From Draconibacterium aestuarii (GTDB lineage Bacteria > Bacteroidota > Bacteroidia > Bacteroidales > Prolixibacteraceae): a DNA stretch of 64,000 nt. How positions within the stretch are numbered: position 1 is the stretch's first letter; each line of letters starts with the position of its first letter. The notes below the pieces were generated by a model. It made no database searches, was not told the DNA's origin, and was given only the letters and a program-made list of their open reading frames with translations. Location: contig JAPOHD010000015.1 in NCBI GenBank assembly GCA_026671195.1, positions 62,001 through 126,000 on the forward strand. The letters run 5' to 3'. Positions 43,414-56,079 of this stretch are shown in pieces. Position numbers and translations under genes: made by a program.

Positions 43414-44649
43414 ATGAAGAAACTTGTAATACTGGGTGCCGGTACAGCCGGAACCATGATGGCGAACAAACTCAGAGGAGCTTTAGACAGGGAAGAGTGG
43501 AGCATTACAATTGTCGACCAGTTTAAAACACATTATTACCAACCCGGATTTTTGTTTATCCCCTTTGGTATTTATAACAGTCATGATGTGATTAAACCAA
43601 AATCCGATTTTATCCCGACGGGTGTGAATATGATTTATTCGGCAATCGACAGGGTGGAAGCCGAATCGAATAAAGTGCATCTGGAAGGTGGAAAGATTTT
43701 GAACTACGATTACCTGATTATTGCCACCGGAACAAAAACATTTCCTGACGAAACGCCCGGATTACAAGATAAACTCTGGCACAAAGAGATTTTCGACTTT
43801 TATACCATTGAAGGAGCCTGTGCCTTGCAGCGGTTTTTCAAAGGCTGGGAAGGTGGTAAATTGGTAATGGCCATTACCGAACTGCCGTATAAATGCCCGG
43901 TAGCTCCGCTTGAGTTTGTGTTTTTGGCAGACGCTTATTTTACTCAAATTGGCATCCGCGACAAAGTGGATATAAGTTATGTGACGCCAATGCCAGGTGC
44001 TTTTACAAAACCTGTGGCTACAAAAATGCTGTCGGAGTTGCTGGCAGAAAAAAATATTACGGTCATCCCCGATTTTTATATCGAACGTGTGGATAATGAT
44101 TCGAAGAAATTGATTTCTTACGACGAAAGGGAAGTTGAATTTGATGTGCTTACAGTGGTGCCTGTTAATATGGGCGACGAAATGATTGAGCGCAGCGGTT
44201 TGGGCGACGACATGAATTTTGTTCCAACCGATAAAGAAACTTTACAATCGAAAAAGCACGAAAATATTTTTGTGTTGGGCGATGCTTCAAATATTCCTAC
44301 TTCGAAAGCCGGATCGGTGGCGCACTTTGCTGCTGAAATTCTTTTCGAAAACTTAATGAGTGCGATAGAAGGACGCCCCTTGCATGCTAAATTCGATGGA
44401 CATGCAAATTGTTACATCGAAACCGGATTTGGCAAAGGAGCACTTATCGATTTTAATTACGACACCGAACCGCTTCCCGGAACTTTCCCGCTACCGGGCC
44501 TTGGTCCGTTTGGCTTACTCGAGAATACAAAAATCAATCATTACGGAAAGGTAATGTTTCGCTGGATTTACTGGCACATTCTTTTAAAAGGAAAGGAATT
44601 GCCGGTTGAACCGCTGATGACAATGGCCGGGAAAAAGAAGGTGAATTAA
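43414..44649 (+). CDS. sqr: Sulfide:quinone oxidoreductase-like flavoprotein
   Basis: A FAD enzyme of the SQR/flavocytochrome c sulfide dehydrogenase family, expected to oxidise sulfide to polysulfide or a persulfide and pass electrons to quinone. The FAD-binding motif GAGTAGTMMANKL is at 8-20, ATGTKTFPDETPG at about 104-116 and FVLGDASNIPTSKAGSVAHF at 286-305. Cys 161 (YKCPVAP) and Cys 333 (HANCYIETG) match the two redox cysteines of SQR, and Cys 136 may match the third. The C-terminal WIYWHILLKGKELP looks like a membrane-binding helix. It leads an operon with DUF1641, DsrC and DsrE genes. Confidence 0.85.
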   Translation: MKKLVILGAGTAGTMMANKLRGALDREEWSITIVDQFKTHYYQPGFLFIPFGIYNSHDVIKPKSDFIPTGVNMIYSAIDRVEAESNKVHLEGGKILNYDYLIIATGTKTFPDETPGLQDKLWHKEIFDFYTIEGACALQRFFKGWEGGKLVMAITELPYKCPVAPLEFVFLADAYFTQIGIRDKVDISYVTPMPGAFTKPVATKMLSELLAEKNITVIPDFYIERVDNDSKKLISYDEREVEFDVLTVVPVNMGDEMIERSGLGDDMNFVPTDKETLQSKKHENIFVLGDASNIPTSKAGSVAHFAAEILFENLMSAIEGRPLHAKFDGHANCYIETGFGKGALIDFNYDTEPLPGTFPLPGLGPFGLLENTKINHYGKVMFRWIYWHILLKGKELPVEPLMTMAGKKKVN

Positions 44650-44665
44650 TTGAAAGGAACCTGAA

Positions 44666-45343
44666 ATGGAAGAAAAAGTATTGCAAGCGCAAATAACGGA
44701 ATTAAATCAAAAAGTTGATTTATTGCTGGAATATGTAAATCAGCAGCGGTTAAAAACCAATGAGCTGGAAGACCTTCTGGCCGACGTGTCGATTGTTGGA
44801 AAAGATATGTACGACACGGCGGTGGAAGAGCTGGATAACCGGATGGTGCATCTCGATTTGGATGATGTGAAAGGACTTATGCTTCGCGTTCTGAGGAATA
44901 TTGATAACATGAATAAGTTTCTGGAACTCTTCGAAAGTATGAACGATTTTATAAAGGATGCATCGCCAATATTTAATGAGGTAGTGATTGATTTCAGCAA
45001 AAAATTGCACGAGTTTGACCAAAAAGGATACTTCGAATTTTTTGCCGAAACAGGAAAAATATTCGATAATATAATTGCACACTATAAGCCGGAAGACGTT
45101 CGAGAACTGGCAGATAATGTGGTAACCATAATGGAAACGGTTCGTTCGGCAACACAGCCGGAAATGATGGCAGCACTTCACAACGGAATGAAAGTATACG
45201 GCAGCATGGAAGTCGACAATATTCCTGAATACTCAATCTTTAAAGTGTTGCGCGAAATGAACCAACCCGAGATGAAAAGGGCTTTGGGATTCTTTGTAAC
45301 CTTTATGAAGAACATGGCATCAGAAACAAATACAAATCAATAA
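44666..45343 (+). CDS. DUF1641 domain protein
   Basis: A soluble, helical 225-residue protein. The DUF1641 block is near residues 150-185 (LADNVVTIMETVRSATQPEMMAALHNG). The N-terminal 35 residues form a coiled coil. DUF1641 proteins are repeatedly found beside SQR-like flavoproteins and sulfur-carrier proteins, but their function is unknown. Here it lies 16 bases after the SQR-like gene and 20 bases before the DsrC-like gene. A role as an adaptor between flavoprotein and carrier is a guess from this context. Confidence 0.85.
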   Translation: MEEKVLQAQITELNQKVDLLLEYVNQQRLKTNELEDLLADVSIVGKDMYDTAVEELDNRMVHLDLDDVKGLMLRVLRNIDNMNKFLELFESMNDFIKDASPIFNEVVIDFSKKLHEFDQKGYFEFFAETGKIFDNIIAHYKPEDVRELADNVVTIMETVRSATQPEMMAALHNGMKVYGSMEVDNIPEYSIFKVLREMNQPEMKRALGFFVTFMKNMASETNTNQ

Positions 45344-45363
45344 AACAATTTAAAATTAAAATT

Positions 45364-45675
45364 ATGGCTGAAAAAACGTTAGCAGGAAAAACAGTTGAAG
45401 TAAACGACGAGGGGTATTTATTAAACCGGGATGACTGGGATAAGGATTTGGCTGCTGAAATGGCAAAAGAGGATGGTATTGAATTGACCGATAAACACTA
45501 CGAAGTACTTGAATACCTGAGAGAAAAAGAGGCTGCAGGCGAGTCGTTAACGATCCGTAAAGTTGGGAAGTCGGGGATTACCGATATTAAAGGATTGTAC
45601 CAGCTTTTTCCCGGTGGCCCGTTAAAGTTGTCATCCAAATATGCAGGCATTGCGAAACCCGCAAGTTGTGTTTAA
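45364..45675 (+). CDS. DsrC/TusE family sulfur carrier with a single C-terminal cysteine
   Basis: A small sulfur-carrier protein of the DsrC/TusE family. It has the family start VEVNDEGYLLNRDDWDKDLA, the TIRKVGKSG helix and the C-terminal arm ending PASCV. The penultimate Cys 102 (Cys A) is present. Eleven positions earlier, where dissimilatory DsrC has its second cysteine (Cys B), this protein has Ser 91. That single-cysteine pattern is the one known for TusE-like carriers, yet the neighbours are SQR and DsrE rather than tRNA-thiolation genes. It probably carries a persulfide within this pathway. Confidence 0.9.
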   Translation: MAEKTLAGKTVEVNDEGYLLNRDDWDKDLAAEMAKEDGIELTDKHYEVLEYLREKEAAGESLTIRKVGKSGITDIKGLYQLFPGGPLKLSSKYAGIAKPASCV

Positions 45676-45693
45676 TAACTAAAACCTAAAATT

Positions 45694-46197
45694 ATGACTG
45701 AAGCAAAAGAAAGGCCTTTAAAAAAGGTAATGATAATTGTGGCTAAAGCCAGTATAGAGGATGTTTACGCAGGTTTAATTATGGCGAATGGTGCGGTAAT
45801 GGAAGGAATAGAAGCAAAACTCTTTTTTACCTTTTTCGGGCTCGATGCAATTACTAAAAAGCAAATGAATAAGTTACACACCGGTGTGGTTGGAAACCCG
45901 GGAATGCGAATGCCGGGAGGTTTACCATTCCCAACTCTGTTAGGAGTTATTCCCGGAGTTGAAGCAGGTGTGTCGGCAATGATGAAAAAACAAATGGATG
46001 CTTTGGATGTGCCGCCGGTTGATGAATTTCTGGATATGATTACAGCAGGAGGGGGAGAAATATATGCCTGTAAAATGGCGGCTGATATGTTTAAACTTAC
46101 CAAGGATGATTTAAGCGACCATGTAAAAGCGATTATTACTGTTGGCGATTTGTATGCCATGTCGGGAGGCGATGGTACACAAATTATTTTTACCTGA
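45694..46197 (+). CDS. DsrE/DsrF-like (DsrE2) sulfur-transfer protein
   Basis: A 167-residue sulfur-transfer protein of the DsrE2/DrsE-peroxiredoxin-like type. It begins KKVMIIVAKASIEDVYAGLIMANGAVMEG, has the long glycine-proline insert GMRMPGGLPFPTLLGVIPGVE and ends VGDLYAMSGGDGTQIIF. The active Cys 126 is in IYACKMA. Such proteins bind a persulfide and pass it to DsrC- or TusA-type carriers. It lies 18 bases after the DsrC-like gene and is the last gene of this operon, before a strong terminator. Confidence 0.88.
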   Translation: MTEAKERPLKKVMIIVAKASIEDVYAGLIMANGAVMEGIEAKLFFTFFGLDAITKKQMNKLHTGVVGNPGMRMPGGLPFPTLLGVIPGVEAGVSAMMKKQMDALDVPPVDEFLDMITAGGGEIYACKMAADMFKLTKDDLSDHVKAIITVGDLYAMSGGDGTQIIFT

Positions 46198-46297: not shown

Positions 46298-49027
46298 TTA
46301 TTCCCATTCAGGTAAAACACATTTACTACTCCGGTTTCCCAGTTGCTTCTCAAAATCGTCAAGGCCCGATAACATTACTTTGGAATCCTCTTCGTGGCAG
46401 GTTAAGCAAGCACCTGTAGTAAGTATTGCTTTTTGTTGTTCAATGGTAAACGGAAAAACATCGCTTCGGGTTGAAACGGCTCCGCTACGGTTTTGGAGAA
46501 ATCCTGTCCAGGCATCGGCCGGCAGATTATCGTGTTTGTCATTTTCGTAGAAGGCATCGAATTCCCACTTCCCTTTATCTTCATCGATAGTGTAAGTTAG
46601 TTCGCCTTCACCAAAACCAAGCGCCACCGGATCGTTGTGGCAGCTTTTGCAACTTCTGCCTTTCGACGAAGTTGTGTGTGGTGCACTGGGTGCATACAAG
46701 CGGTGAAAGATAGCCGGGTCATTCTCGTTCCCGGTATAGGATTGTTTATCGATGGTAAGAATCATTCCCGGAACAACAGGTATTATCTCGTCTTTGTCAT
46801 CCGATTTTCGTACGCCGAGCGTTGGAGGTTTTGCCAGATACTCTCCAATTAATTCTACCCAGCCTCCTTTTTGTTCTTCATTTTTGATCATGTTGTAGCT
46901 GGGCTCTTCCGAATCGTATAAATTATGACAGCCAATACAAGTGGGCGCCCAGGCGGTGTGGCAACTCGAACAGGAAAGGTTGGAGTGCGCATTGTTGCGA
47001 ACGCAAATGCTTGCCGGTGCGGTAAGCGCTATTTTTTCGCCTGTATTCTTTTTCAGAAAATAGATGGAATCACTTTCAACAGAAGTATTAATTAGTGCGC
47101 GTTTGTGTTTTTGAGTAACCAGAAACTCCCTGCCGGCAACATTGTTAAAACGTAGCGCTGCAATTAAGGCCGATTCATTATCCAGGTTTTCGGCTGAAAT
47201 TGTATTTGGTTTTTCATAAACATGACAGTCGGCACACGAAACATCCTGCTGATTTTCCTGGTGGGCGTAAAGATTTCCATCTCCCATAACTTCGTATGAA
47301 TGATGGCAATCCACACATTCCAGTCCAAGCTGATGATGTACATCCTCCTGTTTTTTTGTGAAAACACGAAATCCCTCCACCAGACGATAATTGCTGCTAT
47401 CAGGCATTTCTTCCTTTTCAAGTGTAGTTTCGTGCCAGCCTTCGTAATTGGTTGAGATACGACCTGATCGGCTGTGGCATCCAAAACAATGGTTGTTTGA
47501 TATCTGGAGGTCTATCGATGGATGAGCTTTTACTTTTGCATTATGACTAAATGCCAGTGCTTTTTCGGCTTCCGGGCTGTAATTTAAATGACAGGCCAGA
47601 CAACCTCCTCCGCGGCTCGATTCGTTGACGGGGCCAAATTCTGTTTTTGGATTTCCAAGATGACAACGCACGCACAAATTTCGAAGGTGCTCGTCGGCCG
47701 GCGTGTTTCCAAGTTGGTGTACATTGGTTAAAATATCAGGATTGTCCTGTTCATTAAAAACAAAACGGTCAACACTGATCATTCCGCTTAACGTCGACAT
47801 CAAACCTGTGGGTACACGTTCAACAATCTCCGGATGACATTCTGTGGTTCCGCAACTTTGAGGTGCCGTTGCCAGGTTTCCCGGGATTAAAACCATATTT
47901 CGGTGCGACTCGTTTTTGTGGGTTGTAAACGGATTTCCACCGTGACAGGAGGCACATCCAATGGCATCGGGATCATGCGAAGTGCTAAATCCTGTGGTTC
48001 CGGTGTGGCAGGCCAGGCAGCTTTCTTTTCGCCCTTGAATTATTGCGGCGTTGGTAGCTTCAGCTATTTCAAACTCGGGATTTAAGTTAACCCGTGTAGT
48101 TTTAAAATTATGAAGTACGCTATACGTATAACCCGGTTGGCCCGGATAAGTCCATGCCCAGCGTTCTCCTCTAAAAAACAATCCGATTATTGTCAGAATT
48201 AAATAGAATCCGGTAAAAACCAACAATCCACGTTTGGTGATAAATGAAATTCTTTTTTTCGCCGAGTTTACCAGGTAGATGAGGACGATTAGAATAAGGA
48301 ACAGGAGTAACGACCACTCGGGATGTTTTAACCAGTGTAGAATTTCCTGGAAGCCCACAAAATACCACGGGCCTTTTACGGTTGGATTCAGATTGTCGTG
48401 TAACGGAGCGCTAAATAAAAAGCTAACGATAAAAGTTGCTGCAAACGAAACAATAAAATCAAGGTATCGGGGCCAGATTATTTTACTGTGTTCAACAATT
48501 ATAATACCCATAAAAACAGTAAATGTAGCGATGTGATGTACATATATTAATTGGTAACTGTCTGATGCGCCGATTAGCGAAAAGGCCAGTGCTTTTCCAA
48601 TCAGCGGAACACGTTCTGCCAGCGTTTCTAAAATCTGTCGGGCTTGTTCACTGTCAGAGTCTCCCTTCAGCAGAAACCCCGTAATCATTGCCAGAAAAAT
48701 GATCAGCACACCGATACTCAATCGGAAAGCAATTCCTTTTTTGAGTCCGATTCTTTTTTTGTAATGAAAATGATCGTACAAATGAATAAGGCTCAGAATC
48801 AGGAAAAACTGCGAACTCCAGTAATGTAAATTCCGAATTAATGATGCCCACGGATTACTGATCATCATGGTGCTGACACTTAAATAGGGATCCTCAACAT
48901 CGAAAGGGATGGCCAGAAAAATACCGGAAACAATCACCAGCCAGAACAAGGCAATCGCATAGGTTCCAAAAGTGGTTTTTCCCTTTCTTTTTCTGTTTTT
49001 AACTCCCGATTTCAATGTTTTGTCCAT
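46298..49027 (-). CDS. Cytochrome b / dodecaheme cytochrome c fusion protein
   Basis: A 909-residue fusion. Residues about 20-310 are membrane-embedded and resemble the bc1/b6 cytochrome b N-terminal half: the histidine pair in NLHYWSSQFFLILSLIHL is 14 apart, and the second pair in VHHIATFTVFMGIIIVEH is 15 apart, as in b6-type proteins. KGPWYFVGFQEILHW and HPEW follow, then two more helices. The periplasmic remainder has eleven CXXCH motifs and one CX4CH (SCGTTECH), so about twelve c hemes. The ATG at 49027 lies inside the Rieske gene (29-base overlap). Quinol or quinone chemistry linked to a multiheme wire is the likely role. Confidence 0.85.
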   Translation of the reverse strand: MDKTLKSGVKNRKRKGKTTFGTYAIALFWLVIVSGIFLAIPFDVEDPYLSVSTMMISNPWASLIRNLHYWSSQFFLILSLIHLYDHFHYKKRIGLKKGIAFRLSIGVLIIFLAMITGFLLKGDSDSEQARQILETLAERVPLIGKALAFSLIGASDSYQLIYVHHIATFTVFMGIIIVEHSKIIWPRYLDFIVSFAATFIVSFLFSAPLHDNLNPTVKGPWYFVGFQEILHWLKHPEWSLLLFLILIVLIYLVNSAKKRISFITKRGLLVFTGFYLILTIIGLFFRGERWAWTYPGQPGYTYSVLHNFKTTRVNLNPEFEIAEATNAAIIQGRKESCLACHTGTTGFSTSHDPDAIGCASCHGGNPFTTHKNESHRNMVLIPGNLATAPQSCGTTECHPEIVERVPTGLMSTLSGMISVDRFVFNEQDNPDILTNVHQLGNTPADEHLRNLCVRCHLGNPKTEFGPVNESSRGGGCLACHLNYSPEAEKALAFSHNAKVKAHPSIDLQISNNHCFGCHSRSGRISTNYEGWHETTLEKEEMPDSSNYRLVEGFRVFTKKQEDVHHQLGLECVDCHHSYEVMGDGNLYAHQENQQDVSCADCHVYEKPNTISAENLDNESALIAALRFNNVAGREFLVTQKHKRALINTSVESDSIYFLKKNTGEKIALTAPASICVRNNAHSNLSCSSCHTAWAPTCIGCHNLYDSEEPSYNMIKNEEQKGGWVELIGEYLAKPPTLGVRKSDDKDEIIPVVPGMILTIDKQSYTGNENDPAIFHRLYAPSAPHTTSSKGRSCKSCHNDPVALGFGEGELTYTIDEDKGKWEFDAFYENDKHDNLPADAWTGFLQNRSGAVSTRSDVFPFTIEQQKAILTTGACLTCHEEDSKVMLSGLDDFEKQLGNRSSKCVLPEWE

Positions 49028-49391
49028 TCTCCGTAATTTTCGATGGAATAATTTCAAGGTTTTTATAGGCCGGCCCCTTTAGTATTTTCCCGGTTAAATC
49101 ATACTCCGATCCGTGACAAGGGCACACCAGTTTTCCGTTTTCCGCATTGTTTATAGTGCAGCCCAAATGTGAACATTTTGAGCTGAGTACAGTGGTTGTA
49201 CCTTCATTATTCACAACAATGTAATTGTCGATAAATGAAACCGTTTTGTTTTTATTGAAAGGGAAAACGCTTTTTGATTGTTGGCTTGTGGCAAGGTGGT
49301 TTACTATGAGTTTGTTCCACAAAAACACAAAAATAGCGGCAATTCCTGCTGCGGCAATCTTTAAAAATGTTCTCCTTGTATTTGTTGCCAT
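48999..49391 (-). CDS. Rieske 2Fe-2S protein
   Basis: A 130-residue membrane-anchored Rieske protein. The N-terminus NTRRTFLKIAAAGIAAIFVFLW is a twin-arginine signal-anchor. The cluster ligands lie in CSHLGC and CPCHGS, including the two extra cysteines that make the usual disulfide. It is short, with only the cluster-binding domain. It overlaps the cytochrome b/multiheme gene by 29 bases, so the two must be made together and probably form one quinol-oxidising complex in place of a standard bc complex. Confidence 0.93.
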   Translation of the reverse strand: MATNTRRTFLKIAAAGIAAIFVFLWNKLIVNHLATSQQSKSVFPFNKNKTVSFIDNYIVVNNEGTTTVLSSKCSHLGCTINNAENGKLVCPCHGSEYDLTGKILKGPAYKNLEIIPSKITENGQNIEIGS

Positions 49392-49871: not shown

Positions 49872-52127
49872 ATGAAGACAAGACGGGATTTTATCAAGAT
49901 TTCAACTGTTGGAGTTGGTGCTGCAGCCATAAGTTATAAGGCTCTGGGATCAAAAGGTTTTGGGTTGTTTGAGTCGAAATTGGAGGGACCAGTGAGCGAC
50001 GAAGACCTTACACCGTATCCAACCTACTGCGAAGTGTGTTTCTGGAAATGCGCCGCATGGGCCTATGTCGATAAAAAAGGTCGTATCCGTAAGGTTTTGG
50101 GAAATAAAAACGATCCGCATTGCAATGGCCGTTTGTGTCCGAGAGGTACTGGTGGTGTTGGAATGACGTATGACGAAGATCGTTTAAAAACTCCACTGAT
50201 CAGAGAAACTCGTAACGACGGTACGCAATACTTTAGAGAAGCCTCATGGGATGAAGCACTTAATAAAGTGGCGGATAAAATGAAGGAGGTAAAAGAAAAA
50301 CACGGACCGGAAGCTTTTGGTTTGTTTAATCACGGTACTCCCGGCGGACAATTTCATCATCTTTTACGTGCCTACGGTTCTGAGAGTAATGCTGAACCGG
50401 CTTTTGCCAATTGTCGCGGGCCACGTATGTCGGCTTATTTTTCCACTTTTGGTGCTTATGTTGGCTCACCGGAAAGTACGGATATACGCGATACAAAATG
50501 TTTGGTATTAATAGGATCGCACATTGGCGAAAATATGCACAATTCGCAGGTGCAGGAAATGTCGGAAGCGATCGACAATGGCGCTACAATTATTACGGTT
50601 GATCCGCGATTTTCAACTGCCGCTGCACATTCCAGTTTTTGGTTGCCGATAAAACCGGCTACCGATATTGCCCTGATAATGGCCTGGATTCATGTGCTGA
50701 TATATGAAGAGCTTTTTGACAAAGATTTTGTTGAACGATATACTTTTGGTTTTGATCAGCTAAAAGAACACGTTAAAAATATGACTCCGGAATGGGCTTA
50801 CGGAATTACAGATATTGAGCCCGAGCAAATACGGAGAACGGCCAAAGAAATGGCCGGAGCTGCACCTGCAGTTGTTATTCATCCCGGACGCCATTTGGTT
50901 TGGTACGGCGACGACACACAGCGTGCACGTGCAATGGCAATTTTATCGGCTTTACTTGGTGCCTGGGGTAAACGAGGCAGTTTGTATTTTGCCGAAGGAA
51001 TTAAAATTCCGGAATATCCACAACCTCATTATCCGGAAACGAAATGGGGATGGAGAGATTGGAATGGCGATAAGTATCCGTTGGCAACAATGGGAATTAC
51101 CACTGAATTGCTAAAGGCTTCAATTCCAAGATTAAATTACGAACATCAGGTAAAAGCCTGGTTGATTGCCGGAACAAACCTTCCGCTTGCAATGCCCGAT
51201 AAACCACTGTTTAAGGAGGCGGCAGCAGCTGTTGAGTTTATTGCAGTGATGGATACTATGCCAATGGAAGTAACCGGTTACGCCGATGTTGTTTTTCCTG
51301 AAGCCACTTATTTGGAGCGTTACGATGTAATCAGATCGGCCGCGAACCGTGAACCAAACATTGCGTTACGCATGCCGGCAATCGAACCAAAATACGATTC
51401 AAAACCGGGGTGGTGGATTGCCAAACAATTGGGCGAACGTTTGGGCTTGCACGACTATTTTAATTACGATGATTATGCGGAAGTAATTGACTGGCAACTT
51501 AAAAAATTGGGAACTTCGCTGGAAGAGATGAAAAAAATCGGCGTTAAAAAATTCCCAAGGAAAAGTGGCCCGTTATACATGGGTGAAGGTGAGGATTTTG
51601 AATTCAATACAAATACGGGTAAAATCGAATTGTATTCTGTTGATTTTGCAGATCATGGATTTGATCCTATCCCAAAATATACAAAACACCCGGAACCGCC
51701 TGCCAATTTCTATCGATTAATATACGGACGTGCTCCAATGCATACTTTTAGCCGAACCATTAACAATCCAAACTTATCGGACTTAATGAGTGAGAACAGT
51801 GTTTGGGTAAATCCAAAAGTAGCCGATTTGTGGGGATTGAAAAAAGGACAGGAAGTATGGTTGAAAAACCAGGATGGAGCCATAACAACATTCCCGGTTA
51901 AAATTCGTGTAACGGAAAGAATCAGATGGGATTCGGTGTACATGGTTCATGGTTTTGGACATGCCAATAAAAAATTATCGCGGGCATTTGGTCGCGGTGC
52001 GGCTGATACCGAAATGATAACAAATGTGATGGTTGACCCGATAATGGGAGGAACCGGAATGAGAGGAAACTTTATAACGTTTTTAAAAGAAGACCCGGCT
52101 TTGAATAGAAAGGAGGCTAAAGCATGA
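49872..52127 (+). CDS. psrA: Molybdopterin oxidoreductase, polysulfide/thiosulfate reductase-like catalytic subunit
   Basis: A bis-MGD enzyme of the DMSO reductase family, closest in style to PsrA/PhsA. The Tat signal is TRRDFIKIS. The 4Fe-4S cysteines are C53, C56, C60 and C89 (CEVCFWKC and LCPRG). Cys 181 (FANCRGP) is a candidate Mo ligand. MopB blocks follow, such as LVLIGSHIGENMHNS and VDPRFSTAAAHSSFWLPIKPATD. A C-terminal molydopterin-binding domain includes SENSVWVNPKVADLWGLKKGQEVWLKN. The substrate could be polysulfide, thiosulfate or another sulfur oxyanion; arsenate or tetrathionate cannot be excluded. It is the first of seven genes and overlaps psrB by 4 bases. Confidence 0.85.
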   Translation: MKTRRDFIKISTVGVGAAAISYKALGSKGFGLFESKLEGPVSDEDLTPYPTYCEVCFWKCAAWAYVDKKGRIRKVLGNKNDPHCNGRLCPRGTGGVGMTYDEDRLKTPLIRETRNDGTQYFREASWDEALNKVADKMKEVKEKHGPEAFGLFNHGTPGGQFHHLLRAYGSESNAEPAFANCRGPRMSAYFSTFGAYVGSPESTDIRDTKCLVLIGSHIGENMHNSQVQEMSEAIDNGATIITVDPRFSTAAAHSSFWLPIKPATDIALIMAWIHVLIYEELFDKDFVERYTFGFDQLKEHVKNMTPEWAYGITDIEPEQIRRTAKEMAGAAPAVVIHPGRHLVWYGDDTQRARAMAILSALLGAWGKRGSLYFAEGIKIPEYPQPHYPETKWGWRDWNGDKYPLATMGITTELLKASIPRLNYEHQVKAWLIAGTNLPLAMPDKPLFKEAAAAVEFIAVMDTMPMEVTGYADVVFPEATYLERYDVIRSAANREPNIALRMPAIEPKYDSKPGWWIAKQLGERLGLHDYFNYDDYAEVIDWQLKKLGTSLEEMKKIGVKKFPRKSGPLYMGEGEDFEFNTNTGKIELYSVDFADHGFDPIPKYTKHPEPPANFYRLIYGRAPMHTFSRTINNPNLSDLMSENSVWVNPKVADLWGLKKGQEVWLKNQDGAITTFPVKIRVTERIRWDSVYMVHGFGHANKKLSRAFGRGAADTEMITNVMVDPIMGGTGMRGNFITFLKEDPALNRKEAKA

Positions 52128-52657
52128 GATATGCAATGGCAATAGACACAAAAAAATGTGTCGGATGTGGCGACTGTGTAGTTGCCTGCCAAACAGAGAA
52201 TAATGTTCCGCACGGCTACTGCCGTGACTGGATTGTGGAGAGAGTAGATGGAACGTATCCAAGTCTGAGTCTGGAGTTTCGTTCTGAGCGTTGTAACCAT
52301 TGCGACAATTCGCCTTGTGTGCGCTGCTGCCCAACAGGAGCAAGTCACATTGTTGATGGCGGAGTTGTTTTGGTAACGCCTCATAAATGTATCGGCTGCG
52401 GAGCCTGTATTGAGTCGTGCCCTTACGATGCACGTTATCCACATCCTGAAGGACACGTTGATAAATGTACTTTTTGTATTCATCGCGTTGAAAAAGGACA
52501 AAACCCTGCCTGCGTAGATGTTTGTCCAACAAACTGTTTGCATTTTGGCGATTTGGACGATCCAAACAGTGCAGTTTCATTGGCGTTGAAAGATCGCAAA
52601 TGGAAAGTCCTGGCACCAGAAGCCGGTACAAAACCACAACTATATTTTCTTACCTAA
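52124..52657 (+). CDS. psrB: 4Fe-4S electron-transfer subunit (PsrB/NrfC-like)
   Basis: The electron-transfer subunit of the complex, with four 4Fe-4S sites: CVGCGDCVVAC, CNHCDNSPCVRCCP, CIGCGACIESCP and CTFCIHRVEKGQNPACVDVCP. At 177 residues it matches PsrB/DmsB. There is no signal, as expected for a subunit exported with its Tat partner. The start overlaps psrA by four bases and psrC follows after 17 bases. Confidence 0.93.
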   Translation: MRYAMAIDTKKCVGCGDCVVACQTENNVPHGYCRDWIVERVDGTYPSLSLEFRSERCNHCDNSPCVRCCPTGASHIVDGGVVLVTPHKCIGCGACIESCPYDARYPHPEGHVDKCTFCIHRVEKGQNPACVDVCPTNCLHFGDLDDPNSAVSLALKDRKWKVLAPEAGTKPQLYFLT

Positions 52658-52674
52658 AAATAAACTAGAACAAA

Positions 52675-53616
52675 ATGAAAGAAGAATTATTTGTTAGTGG
52701 ACGAAATATACCGAATATTGATCCATTCTTAAAAATCTGGCATTGGCAAATTCCCCTTTATTTATTCTTAGGAGGATTGGCAGCAGGCATTCTGTTTTTT
52801 GCCGGTTATTTTGTAGTTAGAGGTAAGGAAAAAGAAATGCAGACTGCCGTAAAGTGGGCGCCGTTATTGGCTCCAATTGCACTCGTACTTGGTTTGGGTG
52901 CTTTGTTCTGGGATTTAAAGCATAAACTCTATTTCTGGCAGTTGTATACAACCATTCGTTTGGAATCTCCAATGGGATGGGGGGCCTGGACTTTGATGAT
53001 CATTACTCCTTTGTCGTTGATTTGGGTAGCCAGTTATATGAAAGAGATTTTTCCCTGGTGGGACTGGAAATTTAAATTACTGGATAAGTTTGAGGCATTT
53101 GTAATAAAATACCGTGTTCCGTTAGCGTGGGTAATGATGATTTATGCGATTATTCTCGGAGTATATACCGGAATTCTGCTTTCTGCATTTAATGCCCGCC
53201 CACTTTGGAACACATCCATACTTGGGCCTCTGTTCCTGGTTTCAGGATTTTCAACGGGGTTGGCGGCAACCATCTGGATGAGTAAAGACGCCGCAGAACG
53301 TAAAGTATTAAGCCAAATCGATTTGGTTTTTATTTTTGTTGAGATTTTCCTGATTATCCACTTATTTATGGGATTTTTGGCCGGATCAGAAACCAGTATC
53401 GAAGCTGCAAACCTGTTTTTAGGTGGTCCTTTTACCGTAAGTTTTTGGGTATTTGTAGTTTTATTGGGGCTTGTATTTCCTGCTGTTCTGGAAACTTTGG
53501 AAATTTGGGGTTTTCATGTTCCAAAATGGTTACCTGCAGTACTTATTTTGTTTGGCGGATTAATGTTCCGTTTTATTATGGTTGAAGCCGGACAGATAAC
53601 CAGATATTTATATTAA
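52675..53616 (+). CDS. psrC: NrfD/PsrC membrane subunit
   Basis: The quinone-binding membrane anchor of the reductase, with about eight membrane helices. The first has the NrfD-type WHWQIPLYLFLGGLAAGILFFAGYF. RLESPMGWGAWTLM and PLWNTSILGPLFLVSGFSTGLAA are further family blocks, and the protein ends in a helix with FRFIMVEAGQ. The 313 residues are typical of PsrC. It has no heme histidine pattern, in line with the NrfD family, and would pass electrons between quinol and PsrB. Confidence 0.92.
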   Translation: MKEELFVSGRNIPNIDPFLKIWHWQIPLYLFLGGLAAGILFFAGYFVVRGKEKEMQTAVKWAPLLAPIALVLGLGALFWDLKHKLYFWQLYTTIRLESPMGWGAWTLMIITPLSLIWVASYMKEIFPWWDWKFKLLDKFEAFVIKYRVPLAWVMMIYAIILGVYTGILLSAFNARPLWNTSILGPLFLVSGFSTGLAATIWMSKDAAERKVLSQIDLVFIFVEIFLIIHLFMGFLAGSETSIEAANLFLGGPFTVSFWVFVVLLGLVFPAVLETLEIWGFHVPKWLPAVLILFGGLMFRFIMVEAGQITRYLY

Positions 53617-53635: not shown

Positions 53636-54172
53636 ATGAATATGAATAATACTATCATCGATCAGCCAAAATATATAAATCCATATCTGGGAGGTGTTTT
53701 GCTTGGTTTGCTGATTTTAGCAACAGTTTACATTACCGGACGCGGATTAGGGGCAAGTGGTTCCATTAAAAGCGCAGTAGTTACAACTTCAAATACAATT
53801 GCACCGGAAGCAACCAAAGCCAATTCTTATATGGGCAAATTTGTTAGCGACGATCATTCGCCGATGTATACCTGGTTAGTTTTCGAATCATTGGGTGTAC
53901 TGCTTGGAGGTTTGTTATCGGGTATCATTTTTGGGAGAACCAAAAAATTCCGTACCGATCATGGTCCAAAAATCACCAGTAAAAGAAGGTGGATTTATGC
54001 CACAATTGGTGGAGCTCTTTTTGGTATTGGCAGTCAGTTTGGACGTGGTTGTACCAGTGGAGCCGCATTAAGTGGAACAGCCACTTTTGCATTGGGAGGA
54101 GTTATTGTAATGTTTGCCATTTTTGGTACTGGATACGTAATCTCCTATTTTTTCAGAAAAATGTGGATTTAG
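53636..54172 (+). CDS. YeeE/YedE family half-transporter (first of two)
   Basis: A half-length member of the YeeE/YedE (TsuA-like) family that imports thiosulfate or related sulfur species. About four to five membrane helices are seen. The conserved sulfur-pathway cysteine is in SQFGRGCTSGAALSGTATFALGG near the C-terminus. A loop of about 60 residues after the first helix (ASGSIKSAVVTTSNTIAPEA onwards) is also seen in two-gene forms. It lies 19 bases after psrC and 25 bases before the second half. The two halves together equal one full YeeE protein. Confidence 0.88.
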   Translation: MNMNNTIIDQPKYINPYLGGVLLGLLILATVYITGRGLGASGSIKSAVVTTSNTIAPEATKANSYMGKFVSDDHSPMYTWLVFESLGVLLGGLLSGIIFGRTKKFRTDHGPKITSKRRWIYATIGGALFGIGSQFGRGCTSGAALSGTATFALGGVIVMFAIFGTGYVISYFFRKMWI

Positions 54173-54197: not shown

Positions 54198-54800
54198 ATG
54201 GGACCTTTAATTCCTAACGGTATAATAGGTGGAGGCTGGGATTTTGTAATCGCTATTTTAATTGGAGTAGCCTTTGGATTTATTCTGGAAGCTTCCGGCT
54301 TTTCATCATCAAGAAATCTAGCAGGTGTTTTTTACGGATACAACTTTGTTGTTCTTCGTGTATTTTTTACTGCCTTAATTGTTGCAATGGTCGGCATAAT
54401 ATACTTCGATTTTCTGGGCTGGCTCGACTTATCAAAAATATTTATACTTCCAACTTTTCTAACTCCTATGATTGTAGGAGGTGTAATTATGGGATTTGGA
54501 TTTATTATTGGAGGATATTGTCCGGGTACCAGTTTTACCGGAATTGCAATTGGTAAACTGGATGCTGTATTTTTTACAGTTGGTTTGTATCTTGGAATCT
54601 TTGCTTTCTCGCTGGCATATCCATTGTTTGAAGGATTTTTTACCAGTGGTGCATTGGGAAATGTAACGCTTACCGACGTAACCGGTATTCCGGCACATTG
54701 GTTTGCACTTGCCTTTACAGTAGTGGCTTTGGCAGCTTTCTGGGGTACAATGTTTATCGAAAAACGCGTGAGAAAGAATATGAAACAGTATAAATTTTAG
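54198..54800 (+). CDS. YeeE/YedE family half-transporter (second of two)
   Basis: The second half-transporter, 200 residues with about six membrane helices. The start contains GFILEASGFSSSRNLAGVFYG, and the conserved motif is GGYCPGTSFTGIAIGKLDAVFF with its cysteine. The partner at 53636 has the GRGCTSG motif, so the two chains supply the two pseudo-symmetric cysteine motifs of a complete transporter. The gene is four bases from the first rhodanese-like gene, which suggests direct handover of sulfur on the periplasmic or cytosolic face. Confidence 0.88.
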   Translation: MGPLIPNGIIGGGWDFVIAILIGVAFGFILEASGFSSSRNLAGVFYGYNFVVLRVFFTALIVAMVGIIYFDFLGWLDLSKIFILPTFLTPMIVGGVIMGFGFIIGGYCPGTSFTGIAIGKLDAVFFTVGLYLGIFAFSLAYPLFEGFFTSGALGNVTLTDVTGIPAHWFALAFTVVALAAFWGTMFIEKRVRKNMKQYKF

Positions 54801-54804
54801 TAAG

Positions 54805-55413
54805 ATGAATAAAAACTATATTATACTTACGATACTCATGCTTGTTCTGGCTGTCGGAACCATCTTTTTGAACAGGGAAGAAGAACCTAAACAAATTGAG
54901 CCAAGCAAATTATTGCAGGAAATTATTCAGCCAACAAGATATGTTACTACCGATCAGGTTGCTAAAATGATTATAAAAGGAGACCCTGGTTTGATGTTGG
55001 TTGATGTTCGCAGCAATTCTGAATTTGAGGAATTTTCGCTTCCAAATTCAGTAAATATTCCGCTCGACAGTCTTTTAACCGGCGATAATCTTTCCTATTT
55101 TGGAATACCGGGAACACAGGTGGTTTTTATATCTGACGATGCAATTAAGGCAGACCAGTGCTGGGTGTTAACCAAACGATTGGGATTGAATAGCACCTAT
55201 GTTATGCTGGGTGGCTTAAATAAATGGATGGAAACAATCATTGATCCGCAACAACCGTCTGATGACGAGCCTTACACCGTACACGAAACGTATTCATTTA
55301 GAAAAGGGGCTCAAATGTATTTTACAGGAGCCGAAGCAGAAGTTGGTGGATCGAAAGTAAAAGTAGAAGTTCGCAGAAAAGAGAAAACTACAGTGGCTGC
55401 CGGTGGCTGTTAA
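54805..55413 (+). CDS. Membrane-anchored rhodanese-like protein without active-site Cys, C-terminal AAGGC
   Basis: A 202-residue protein with an N-terminal anchor (NYIILTILMLVLAVGTIFL) and a rhodanese fold at about 45-145 (LMLVDVRSNSEFEEFSLPNSVNIPL; VMLGGLNKWM). The residue that should be the catalytic cysteine, after VVFIS, is Asp 111. Another cysteine, C119, is in the following helix. The C-terminal 35 residues form a basic tail (VKVEVRRKEKTTVAAGGC) that ends in Cys 202. The downstream neighbour has the same tail. A tail cysteine acting as the sulfur acceptor is inferred from conservation and context. Confidence 0.82.
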   Translation: MNKNYIILTILMLVLAVGTIFLNREEEPKQIEPSKLLQEIIQPTRYVTTDQVAKMIIKGDPGLMLVDVRSNSEFEEFSLPNSVNIPLDSLLTGDNLSYFGIPGTQVVFISDDAIKADQCWVLTKRLGLNSTYVMLGGLNKWMETIIDPQQPSDDEPYTVHETYSFRKGAQMYFTGAEAEVGGSKVKVEVRRKEKTTVAAGGC

Positions 55414-55440
55414 TTCATAATCAATCAAAAAAATCAAACA

Positions 55441-56079
55441 ATGCATATACATGAATTAAATCCATGGAGAACATTAATAGCACTCTCGGTGTTTGTGGTT
55501 CTCCTGATTGTGGGCTTTTTAACCATGAAGAAACCTTTGATGTCGTATCAGTTAAATATGACGCAAAGTGTAGAGGAACTTACAGAGTCGGAAGCATATT
55601 TTTTTCCATGGGAATTGGAAGGAGTAATCAACAAGGAAACAACAGATGTTGTTCTGTTCGATATTCGCAATAATTTTGTTTTTGGACAGGGGCACATTCC
55701 TGGAGCGGAAAATATTTCAGCCAATAATTTAAGTAGCGAAGAAAATATTGCACGCCTGGAAGAGCTTAAAAAGATGAACGTTACCGTGGTGCTTTATGGC
55801 GATGATGAGTTGCATGCAAATGGTCCCTGGATGTTATTTCGACAGGTCGGATATGATAATGTAAAGCTACTTTTGGGTGGTTACAAGTATTACTTTGAGC
55901 ATAAAGAAGATTTGGCGGCAACGATTGATGATGACGGGTATTATATCGGTTTCCCAAGGCATAATTATGCTGAAATGGCGGCTCCTAAAGATGGATCAGC
56001 GGCTGGTACATCGAACGAAAGACAAGAGGTTCAGGTACAACGCAGAAAGAAGACGGTAGTGGCTGCCGGAGGTTGTTAA
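55441..56079 (+). CDS. Second membrane-anchored rhodanese-like protein, sole Cys in C-terminal AAGGC
   Basis: A 212-residue relative of the preceding protein. An anchor helix (TLIALSVFVVLLIVGFLTM) is followed by a rhodanese-like domain at about 55-155 (VVLFDIRNNFVFGQGHIPGAENI; VKLLLGGYKYYF). The active-site position after VVLYG is Asp 121. The only cysteine in the whole protein is the last residue, in the tail VQVQRRKKTVVAAGGC. The domain sequences of the pair have diverged while the tails stayed almost the same, which points to function in the tail. It is the last gene of the psr operon. Confidence 0.82.
   Translation: MHIHELNPWRTLIALSVFVVLLIVGFLTMKKPLMSYQLNMTQSVEELTESEAYFFPWELEGVINKETTDVVLFDIRNNFVFGQGHIPGAENISANNLSSEENIARLEELKKMNVTVVLYGDDELHANGPWMLFRQVGYDNVKLLLGGYKYYFEHKEDLAATIDDDGYYIGFPRHNYAEMAAPKDGSAAGTSNERQEVQVQRRKKTVVAAGGC

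Follow-up and report, generated by a model that had tools for sequence, protein, structure and literature searches.

Degenerate rhodaneses with a terminal-cysteine tail, candidate sulfur carriers of the split YeeE transporter in Bacteroidota

The stretch of the Draconibacterium aestuarii genome analyzed here, 64,000 nucleotides long and referred to below as the window, contains two neighboring genes whose products, P1 and P2, are membrane-anchored proteins with a degenerate rhodanese domain and a tail that terminates in cysteine. On a single strand they follow genes for a PsrA-, a PsrB- and a PsrC-like protein and for the two halves, YeeE1 and YeeE2, of a split YeeE/YedE transporter. A flexible cysteine arm on a domain without its own catalytic cysteine, next to YeeE and in the company of Psr-like and, at some loci, SQR- and DsrE-like genes, suggests that sulfane sulfur is carried by this arm at the periplasmic entrance of YeeE. 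P1 and P2 are probably periplasmic, membrane-tethered carriers, fused to YeeE in some relatives, whose mobile terminal cysteine would hold sulfane sulfur for exchange with the channel formed by the YeeE halves. A wider proposal, plausible but still somewhat short of probable, is that they represent an entry-side module of split YeeE not described before, in which a rhodanese has traded its catalytic cysteine for a terminal-cysteine swinging tail and has often become fused to a transporter half; the tail would then be a tag-like module for sulfur transfer, borne by periplasmic rhodaneses of several kinds, with or without a catalytic cysteine, that serve one common receiver, hence the joint evolution of the tails.

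Relatives were drawn from 296 Bacteroidota genomes representing the phylum, from 295 genomes of the order, and from a named genome collection; of the 302 loci confirmed in the latter, we used the 80 that ranked best on whole-length similarity. Counts of the tail cysteine refer to complete open reading frames (ORFs) matching at 60 bits or more, with one P2 per locus; they exclude locus L002 (the same as L001), and L118, which is cut by a contig end, was counted separately. Eight matches of 30–60 bits were set aside (five P1-like, all ending in cysteine, and three generic rhodaneses, none of which does), and the counts omit both the fused proteins whose best window relative is YeeE2 and a tail-less P2-like ORF of locus L159 (19.7 bits).

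The conserved tail and the degenerate rhodanese domain

A cysteine occupies the last or the penultimate position in all 115 P1-type ORFs and in 103 of the 105 of P2 type, and the end is exactly GGC in 88/96 non-redundant P1 and 84/86 non-redundant P2 sequences. The tail cysteine is present in 97/97 aligned P1 rows and 86/87 aligned P2 rows (each set contains the window and L001, which are the same protein), and in both alignments it forms the sole conserved cysteine column. Two early alignments (A1 and A2) had been pre-filtered for C or Cx ends, so that invariance of the cysteine in them is by construction; alignment A4 excludes loci with a short local match and A5 the tail-less L101. In the AlphaFold models the predicted local distance difference test (pLDDT) score falls below 50 at residues 178–189 and 195–202 of P1, and P2 has low values, in blocks of 44–55, from residue 181 onward; the last 25–30 residues of both are predicted with low confidence, as disordered tails are. 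The first-pass annotation of the window had described twin ORFs, each with one N-terminal membrane anchor and a rhodanese-like domain, that share a basic tail closing with VAAGGC. All of this holds, the frames to the nucleotide, the anchors by hydropathy and the domains by Pfam score; the single cysteine of P2 is indeed its last residue, and P1 has two, C119 and C202.

Membership of the rhodanese family is supported in both proteins by domain and by fold: the best Foldseek matches in the PDB have E values of 4.8e-7 (P1) and 1.4e-5 (P2), many solved rhodaneses appear in both lists, and the structure predictions (mean pLDDT 84.7 and 84.1) yielded rhodanese-fold models with low-confidence tails. 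The catalytic cysteine that an active sulfurtransferase carries after the fourth strand is absent. In profile alignments with solved PDB rhodaneses it falls opposite Ser110 of P1, which pairs with Gly120 in the P1–P2 profile alignment, and in the strand-loop-helix of the models Ser110 and Gly120 are each the first loop residue. The first-pass annotation had placed aspartate at this position; the predicted models and profile alignments put that assignment off by one, since Asp111 and Asp121 are the residues immediately after it. In the alignments of relatives, 90 of the 97 P1 rows have Ser at this position, three Ala, three Gly and one Cys; of the 87 P2 rows, 58 have Gly, 16 Ala, six His, four Tyr, one Asp and one Cys. 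Such alignments support the view that it is the tail, and not the old active site, that has been conserved.

The distribution of charge around the membrane helix suggests that the rhodanese domain faces the periplasm. The N-terminal flank is the more positive one in 82/96 P1 sequences, less positive in 4 and equal in 10 (means of +2.6 before and −0.6 after the helix); for P2 the corresponding figures are 58/86, 12 and 16. In proteins where the rhodanese is fused to YeeE2 the means are +2.6 and −0.7, and the domain is placed outside in 24/26 rows, one of them a duplicate (L019 = L180). Signal peptides and lipoboxes, recognized by eye on tailed relatives, indicate that the tail occurs on extracytoplasmic proteins. 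Together with the charge rule, they argue for a periplasmic location of P1 and the fused domain and, less clearly, of P2.

The tail is not restricted to the twins. Within the 80 named loci, 165 of 3013 complete ORFs of at least 80 residues close with GGC or GGCx; the nearest query is P1 for 80, P2 for 76 and a lipoprotein type for 3, with 6 unassigned, and every one is rhodanese-like. The ten that are not P1/P2 twins comprise signal-peptide tandem proteins, single-domain lipoproteins and one two-domain lipoprotein (labels given by eye, as for all tandem, secreted and lipoprotein types here), and by eye they keep a catalytic motif such as CNTG, CKKG or CYTG. Pfam, run on eight of them, found a rhodanese domain in all eight; the other two (L105 and L106) are very like the checked L103 and L107. 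In the D. aestuarii genome itself 4 of 12 rhodanese ORFs bear the tail: P1, P2 and two encoded at separate sites on contig C13. The first of these sites (L158:4930-14913) is a second Psr cluster, in which several periplasmic-looking rhodaneses in a row precede PsrABC paralogues: a secreted single-domain rhodanese, a lipoprotein that ends AAAGGC and keeps its CRTG, a lipoprotein of two domains, a porin-like protein and a tandem rhodanese.

This modular occurrence on several periplasmic-looking proteins, and the Gly-Gly beside the end, would also suit a C-terminal signal in which the basic tail plus GGC is cleaved, serves as an anchor or, in the manner of ThiS/QbsE-like tails, becomes activated at Gly-Gly once the cysteine has been lost. 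We nonetheless consider such processing or sorting very unlikely. No hydrophobic helix was found after the motif, at most one residue following the cysteine in complete tailed P1 and P2, and no sorting or CTERM model is among the Pfam and NCBIfam matches of these two proteins. A cleaved residue should drift, yet the end stays cysteine, sometimes with one residue more, and the proteins concerned already have an anchor, be it a helix, a lipobox (by eye) or the YeeE part of a fusion. Since only rhodanese-like ORFs bear the tail in the 80 loci, we also rejected a role as a general tag for export or sorting.

The two tails of a locus resemble one another far more closely than their domains do. In the 83 loci where both are present, 6.76 of the nine residues before GGC are on average identical between P1 and P2, against 3.80 ± 0.13 when tails are shuffled among loci (maximum 4.27 in 2000 shuffles); the identity of the domains is 25.4% (79 pairs). 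Since shuffling leaves the kinship between loci in place, the stronger point is the contrast with orthologues: P1–P1 pairs with 60–75% identical domains (68 of 600 sampled) have only 5.24 of nine tail residues in common. Examples are EEEEGGC in three proteins of locus L048 and, in three of L058, a run of glycines that precedes GGC. In a tree that excludes L008 and L010 and whose deep splits are weak (support 0.093 and 0.548), P2 is monophyletic (85/85, support 0.896), so that the duplication that separated P1 from P2 is old. Where the tail residues agree, the codon is also the same in 349/787 cases; codon usage alone predicts 359.3 (z −0.8). These codon counts and the separate P2 clade led us to reject recent gene conversion as an explanation of the match. 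The comparison supports joint evolution of the twin tails and, with the retention of the cysteine, agrees with the earlier suggestion of selection on the tail despite diverged domains; it is a striking case of short disordered ends being kept alike at the protein level. The simplest reason would be one receiver, common to both tails, which both must fit.

Matching tails also look like a common docking element, and P2 lies directly after P1 in 72/80 loci. Both facts would suit a structural role, in which the terminal cysteine forms a disulfide cross-link (P1–P2, P1–P1, or with YeeE or a lipoprotein partner) or serves as a metal ligand, and so holds a complex together with no carriage of sulfur. 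We think this unlikely: the cysteine is kept in P1 relatives that are single or fused to YeeE, rhodaneses with an intact catalytic cysteine and the same ending point to sulfur chemistry, and the neighboring glycine fits a mobile arm.

Coupling to the split YeeE transporter

Because queries with P1 and P2 could favor tailed proteins, the phylum sample was also searched with YeeE2 alone. This gave 57 matches in 50 of the 296 genomes, 54 of them strong (>100 bits), and all 57 sites were read, 30 in loci of this search, 20 in additional stretches and 7 in loci from earlier searches. At 53 of the 54 strong matches a tailed rhodanese is either adjacent (28) or fused to the C-terminus of YeeE2 (25), and each of these 53 partners ends in cysteine or in cysteine plus one residue. 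The fused partners are P1-like rhodaneses. At the remaining strong match (G294, L205) the reading frame of the rhodanese stops short, and a would-be end, KKKKREGC, lies downstream in another frame; no tailed rhodanese partner was found at the three weak matches (46–60 bits). The residues preceding the cysteine vary among these sites (GGC, EGC, MGC, DGC, one FQC and one GGLCS), and the catalytic position of the 53 domains holds Ser in 20, Ala in 17, Gly in 13, Cys in 2 and Asp in 1. In this sample, then, the coupling of split YeeE to a rhodanese with a tail cysteine is near-absolute, and the fusions argue that the two work as one unit.

A tailed set also exists in another phylum. On a 1.1 Mb plasmid of Gemmatirosa kalamazoonensis (Gemmatimonadota; L211), the one record that a plasmid search yielded, the same order can be made out by eye: a tandem rhodanese, YeeE1, YeeE2 and a degenerate rhodanese ending RLRRRGC. 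Its plasmid location makes inter-phylum transfer possible. Confinement of tail conservation to one lineage was ruled out by the phylum-wide search from YeeE and also by Gemmatirosa.

The named loci, some of whose contigs are cut at their ends, contain YeeE2 in 78 of 80, YeeE1 in 77, P2 in 76, PsrA in 66, PsrB in 69 and PsrC in 72. The idea put forward at the outset, of a persulfide-carrier pair linking YeeE to the Psr reductase, has fared unevenly. The homologue and neighbor tabulation bears out its YeeE side, and the link extends through the phylum; a Psr link was looked for, and observed, in the operons of the named loci related to the window. The pair as such does not appear essential, given that in the phylum sample a second tailed paralogue occurs at 2/54 strong YeeE2 sites, within stretches of ~3.7 kb that reach only ~1.5 kb.

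A redox or regulatory function is a further alternative, whereby the terminal cysteine senses or resolves (for example by reducing mixed disulfides, or by opening and closing YeeE) and delivers no sulfur. In Hyphomicrobium the YeeE-like SoxT1B acts in signaling, and the gene next to soxT1A encodes a DsbA-like protein of the periplasm whose extreme C-terminus bears a CxxC (PMC11582611). A gene matching a Crp-type regulator of the window recurs in many related loci. This reading seems to us distinctly unlikely, because the tail cysteine is the only one in 46/96 P1 and 37/86 P2 sequences, which leaves no internal dithiol there, and because the rhodanese scaffold and the clustering with intact-cysteine rhodaneses favor sulfur transfer.

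Several observations weigh against a sulfur-carrier function, or at least against a uniform one. The two P2 ORFs that lack the tail (L036 and L101) are the same DNA from one lineage, and no tail was found in any frame over ~200 bases downstream; moreover, a P2-like paralogue in the D. aestuarii genome (L159:5277-5744) has neither tail nor any cysteine, so that at least in some settings P2 can do without its cysteine. The make-up of the tail differs greatly between relatives (KKKK, EEEE, GGGG) and is free apart from the end, the cysteine is penultimate in 4/96 P1, and L012 ends in FQC. A cysteine persists at the catalytic position in 2 of the 53 YeeE-linked domains. All 23 fusions that the tree includes group in a single clade, together with one non-fused relative (support 0.942), and fusion may therefore have been one event. 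Topology is a deduction from the charge rule, and by hand count the charges of the window P2 point the other way, about +1 before and +2 after the helix. The first-pass annotation had itself named homologues that keep the classic active-site cysteine, or that lack the terminal one, as evidence against its proposal. Both occur in part: some tailed rhodaneses retain the catalytic cysteine, and the P2-like protein at L159 is tail-less. That second site on contig C13 (L159:5277-7539) is a further set of YeeE1, YeeE2, a P1-like protein ending DGGCE and the P2-like one, and it offers a natural counter-example.

Gene neighborhood in the window

The genes and their parts are listed in Table 1. The Sulf_transp family is divided there between two genes, one for its N-terminal and one for its C-terminal half, each with a cysteine (Pfam; translations), within GGYCPGTS in YeeE2 and GRGCTSG in YeeE1. 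The PhsA- or PsrA-like label denotes similarity only, its score being under the NCBIfam cut-off, and the protein is presumably periplasmic. No named NCBIfam family was found above its cut-off for P1 or P2.

Table 1. Positions in the window of the Psr-like genes, the split YeeE genes, P1 and P2
Feature	Positions	Strand	Basis and remarks
PsrA/PhsA-like molybdopterin reductase with RR signal	49872..52127	+	Pfam Molybdopterin 128.9 bits; NCBIfam PhsA 444.6 bits, below cut-off of 694
PsrB-like ferredoxin subunit	52124..52657	+	Pfam Fer4_11 84 bits
PsrC/NrfD-like membrane subunit	52675..53616	+	Pfam NrfD 153.6 bits
YeeE1, split YeeE/YedE (Sulf_transp) transporter, C-terminal half	53636..54172	+	PF04143 67.5 bits, profile 176-308 of 310
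YeeE2, split YeeE, N-terminal half	54198..54800	+	PF04143 48.6 bits, profile 4-159
P1, membrane-anchored degenerate rhodanese with terminal-Cys tail, 202 residues	54805..55413	+	Pfam Rhodanese 46.0 bits (PF00581 cut-off 22.2)
P1 membrane helix, residues 4-22	54814..54870	+	Hydropathy; N-terminus inside by charge
P1 rhodanese domain, residues 48-143	54946..55233	+	Pfam; catalytic-Cys position Ser110, codon 55132-55134
P1 basic tail, residues 178-202, ending AAGGC	55336..55410	+	Predicted disordered; Cys202 codon 55408-55410
P2, membrane-anchored degenerate rhodanese, paralogue of P1 with similar tail, 212 residues	55441..56079	+	Pfam Rhodanese 55.3 bits (cut-off 22.2)
P2 membrane helix, residues 11-29	55471..55527	+	Hydropathy; side ambiguous by charge for window P2
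P2 rhodanese domain, residues 66-151	55636..55893	+	Pfam; catalytic-Cys position Gly120, codon 55798-55800
P2 tail, residues 186-212, ending RRKKTVVAAGGC	55996..56076	+	Low pLDDT; Cys212 codon 56074-56076

Upstream, at 43414-46197, lie genes for a Type III SQR-like protein (NCBIfam SQR_III_seleno, 659.3 bits, above the cut-off of 525), a DUF1641-like and a DsrE-like protein; in some related loci, L076, L085 and L090 among them, this set comes after P2. SQR-like genes are present in 22/80 and DsrE-like genes in 17/80 of the named loci. On the minus strand at 46298-49391, opposite to PsrABC, are genes for a cytochrome-b/multihaem and a Rieske-type protein, a possible quinone-linked redox partner, with relatives in 25/80 and 21/80 related loci. 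The P2 N-terminus before the membrane helix (55441-55476) also shows conservation, in that many P2 relatives begin MH(V/I)HE(L)NP(K/W), with two histidines.

Proposed sulfur relay and known systems

If P1 and P2 are sulfur carriers, the rhodanese domain would have been kept, after loss of its catalytic cysteine, as a scaffold or docking module, and the reactive group would have moved to the tip of a disordered, mostly basic tail of ~25 residues, usually closing with -(G/E/M)-G-Cys-COOH. Swinging as an arm, this tail could pick up sulfane sulfur, as a persulfide or, if the substrate is thiosulfate, as an S-thiosulfonate. Periplasmic donors might be the Psr/Phs site, polysulfide, or the intact-cysteine rhodaneses of the same clusters, some of which have the same tail; the terminal cysteine would then exchange sulfur with the cysteine-lined entrance formed by YeeE1 and YeeE2. 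Both the chemistry and the partner contacts are conjectured from sequence. Import seems the likelier direction of flow; sulfur might instead be exchanged between Psr and the cytoplasm. In 19/25 fusions the last 215 residues, which make up the rhodanese part, contain just one cysteine, and one point mutant could thus test the carrier idea.

Among known arms the first-pass annotation had named that of DsrC for comparison. DsrC/TusE does use a C-terminal cysteine arm in sulfur trafficking; it is cytoplasmic and of unrelated fold, and no Pfam or NCBIfam match to a DsrC domain was obtained in P1 or P2. SoxY, which is soluble, paired with SoxZ and not a rhodanese, appears nearer. As part of SoxYZ it is a periplasmic carrier whose sulfur substrate is bound by the cysteine of a C-terminal GGCGG (PMC6067878), and transfer from this residue to the cysteines of the YeeE-like SoxT1 has been called conceivable, with doubts about cysteine spacing, by authors who, in discussing which protein might donate sulfur from outside, weigh SoxY, SoxS and a DsbA-like protein and settle on none (PMC11582611). 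In this respect the natural fusions are informative, for they join a channel half to a candidate sulfur donor. The likeness to SoxY, a glycine-flanked cysteine near the C-terminus and, by inference, the periplasmic side, is a resemblance and not a membership; neither Pfam nor NCBIfam gave a SoxY match for P1 or P2, and their arm ends at the cysteine and stands on a membrane-anchored rhodanese fold that lies beside YeeE or is fused to it.

The known rhodanese partner of Psr is Sud, whose cysteine is that of the catalytic loop and which is not known to be membrane-tethered. Sud, a polysulfide-sulfur transferase found in Wolinella succinogenes, takes up sulfur from polysulfide and hands it on to polysulfide reductase, and depends on its single cysteine (PMC2754497; the latter from a reference title). 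The P1 profile matches the Sud structure 1qxn (E 5.4e-5), and the gene linkage to PsrABC expected of a Sud-type protein is found in the named loci. P1 and P2 differ in having Ser or Gly at the catalytic loop, which lacks the sulfur-binding cysteine, and a cysteine at the tail.

Transport by YeeE (TsuA) has itself been proposed to proceed as a relay by cysteine residues, in which YeeD (TsuB), a small cysteine protein that can form one polypeptide with it, supplies a "fourth cysteine" (PMC11073785). The P1-like rhodaneses are likewise cysteine-bearing, fusion-capable partners of YeeE; whereas YeeD is TusA-like and on the cytoplasmic side, the extra helix here should put the rhodanese fold in the periplasm, and by analogy the P1-type rhodanese would be the entry-side counterpart of YeeD. 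A YeeE composed of two half-size proteins is known as PmpA/PmpB (YedE1E2); their halves have ~130 residues, and the available portions of the two reports mention no tailed rhodanese partner (PMC11582611; PMC10812762). Two further papers, in the portions available, treat YeeE/YedE with TusA and DsrE, and periplasmic rhodaneses, and mention no tailed one (PMC13047784, PMC12998232). In the literature searched, by titles and abstract openings and with few subscription papers covered, no description was found of a rhodanese with a terminal-cysteine arm or of such a YeeE–rhodanese fusion. For annotation, a rhodanese that ends in -GC beside YeeE is probably better labeled a carrier than an enzyme. 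Swinging-arm sulfur carriers as such are already known; what would be new is such a carrier on a new scaffold and coupled to YeeE.

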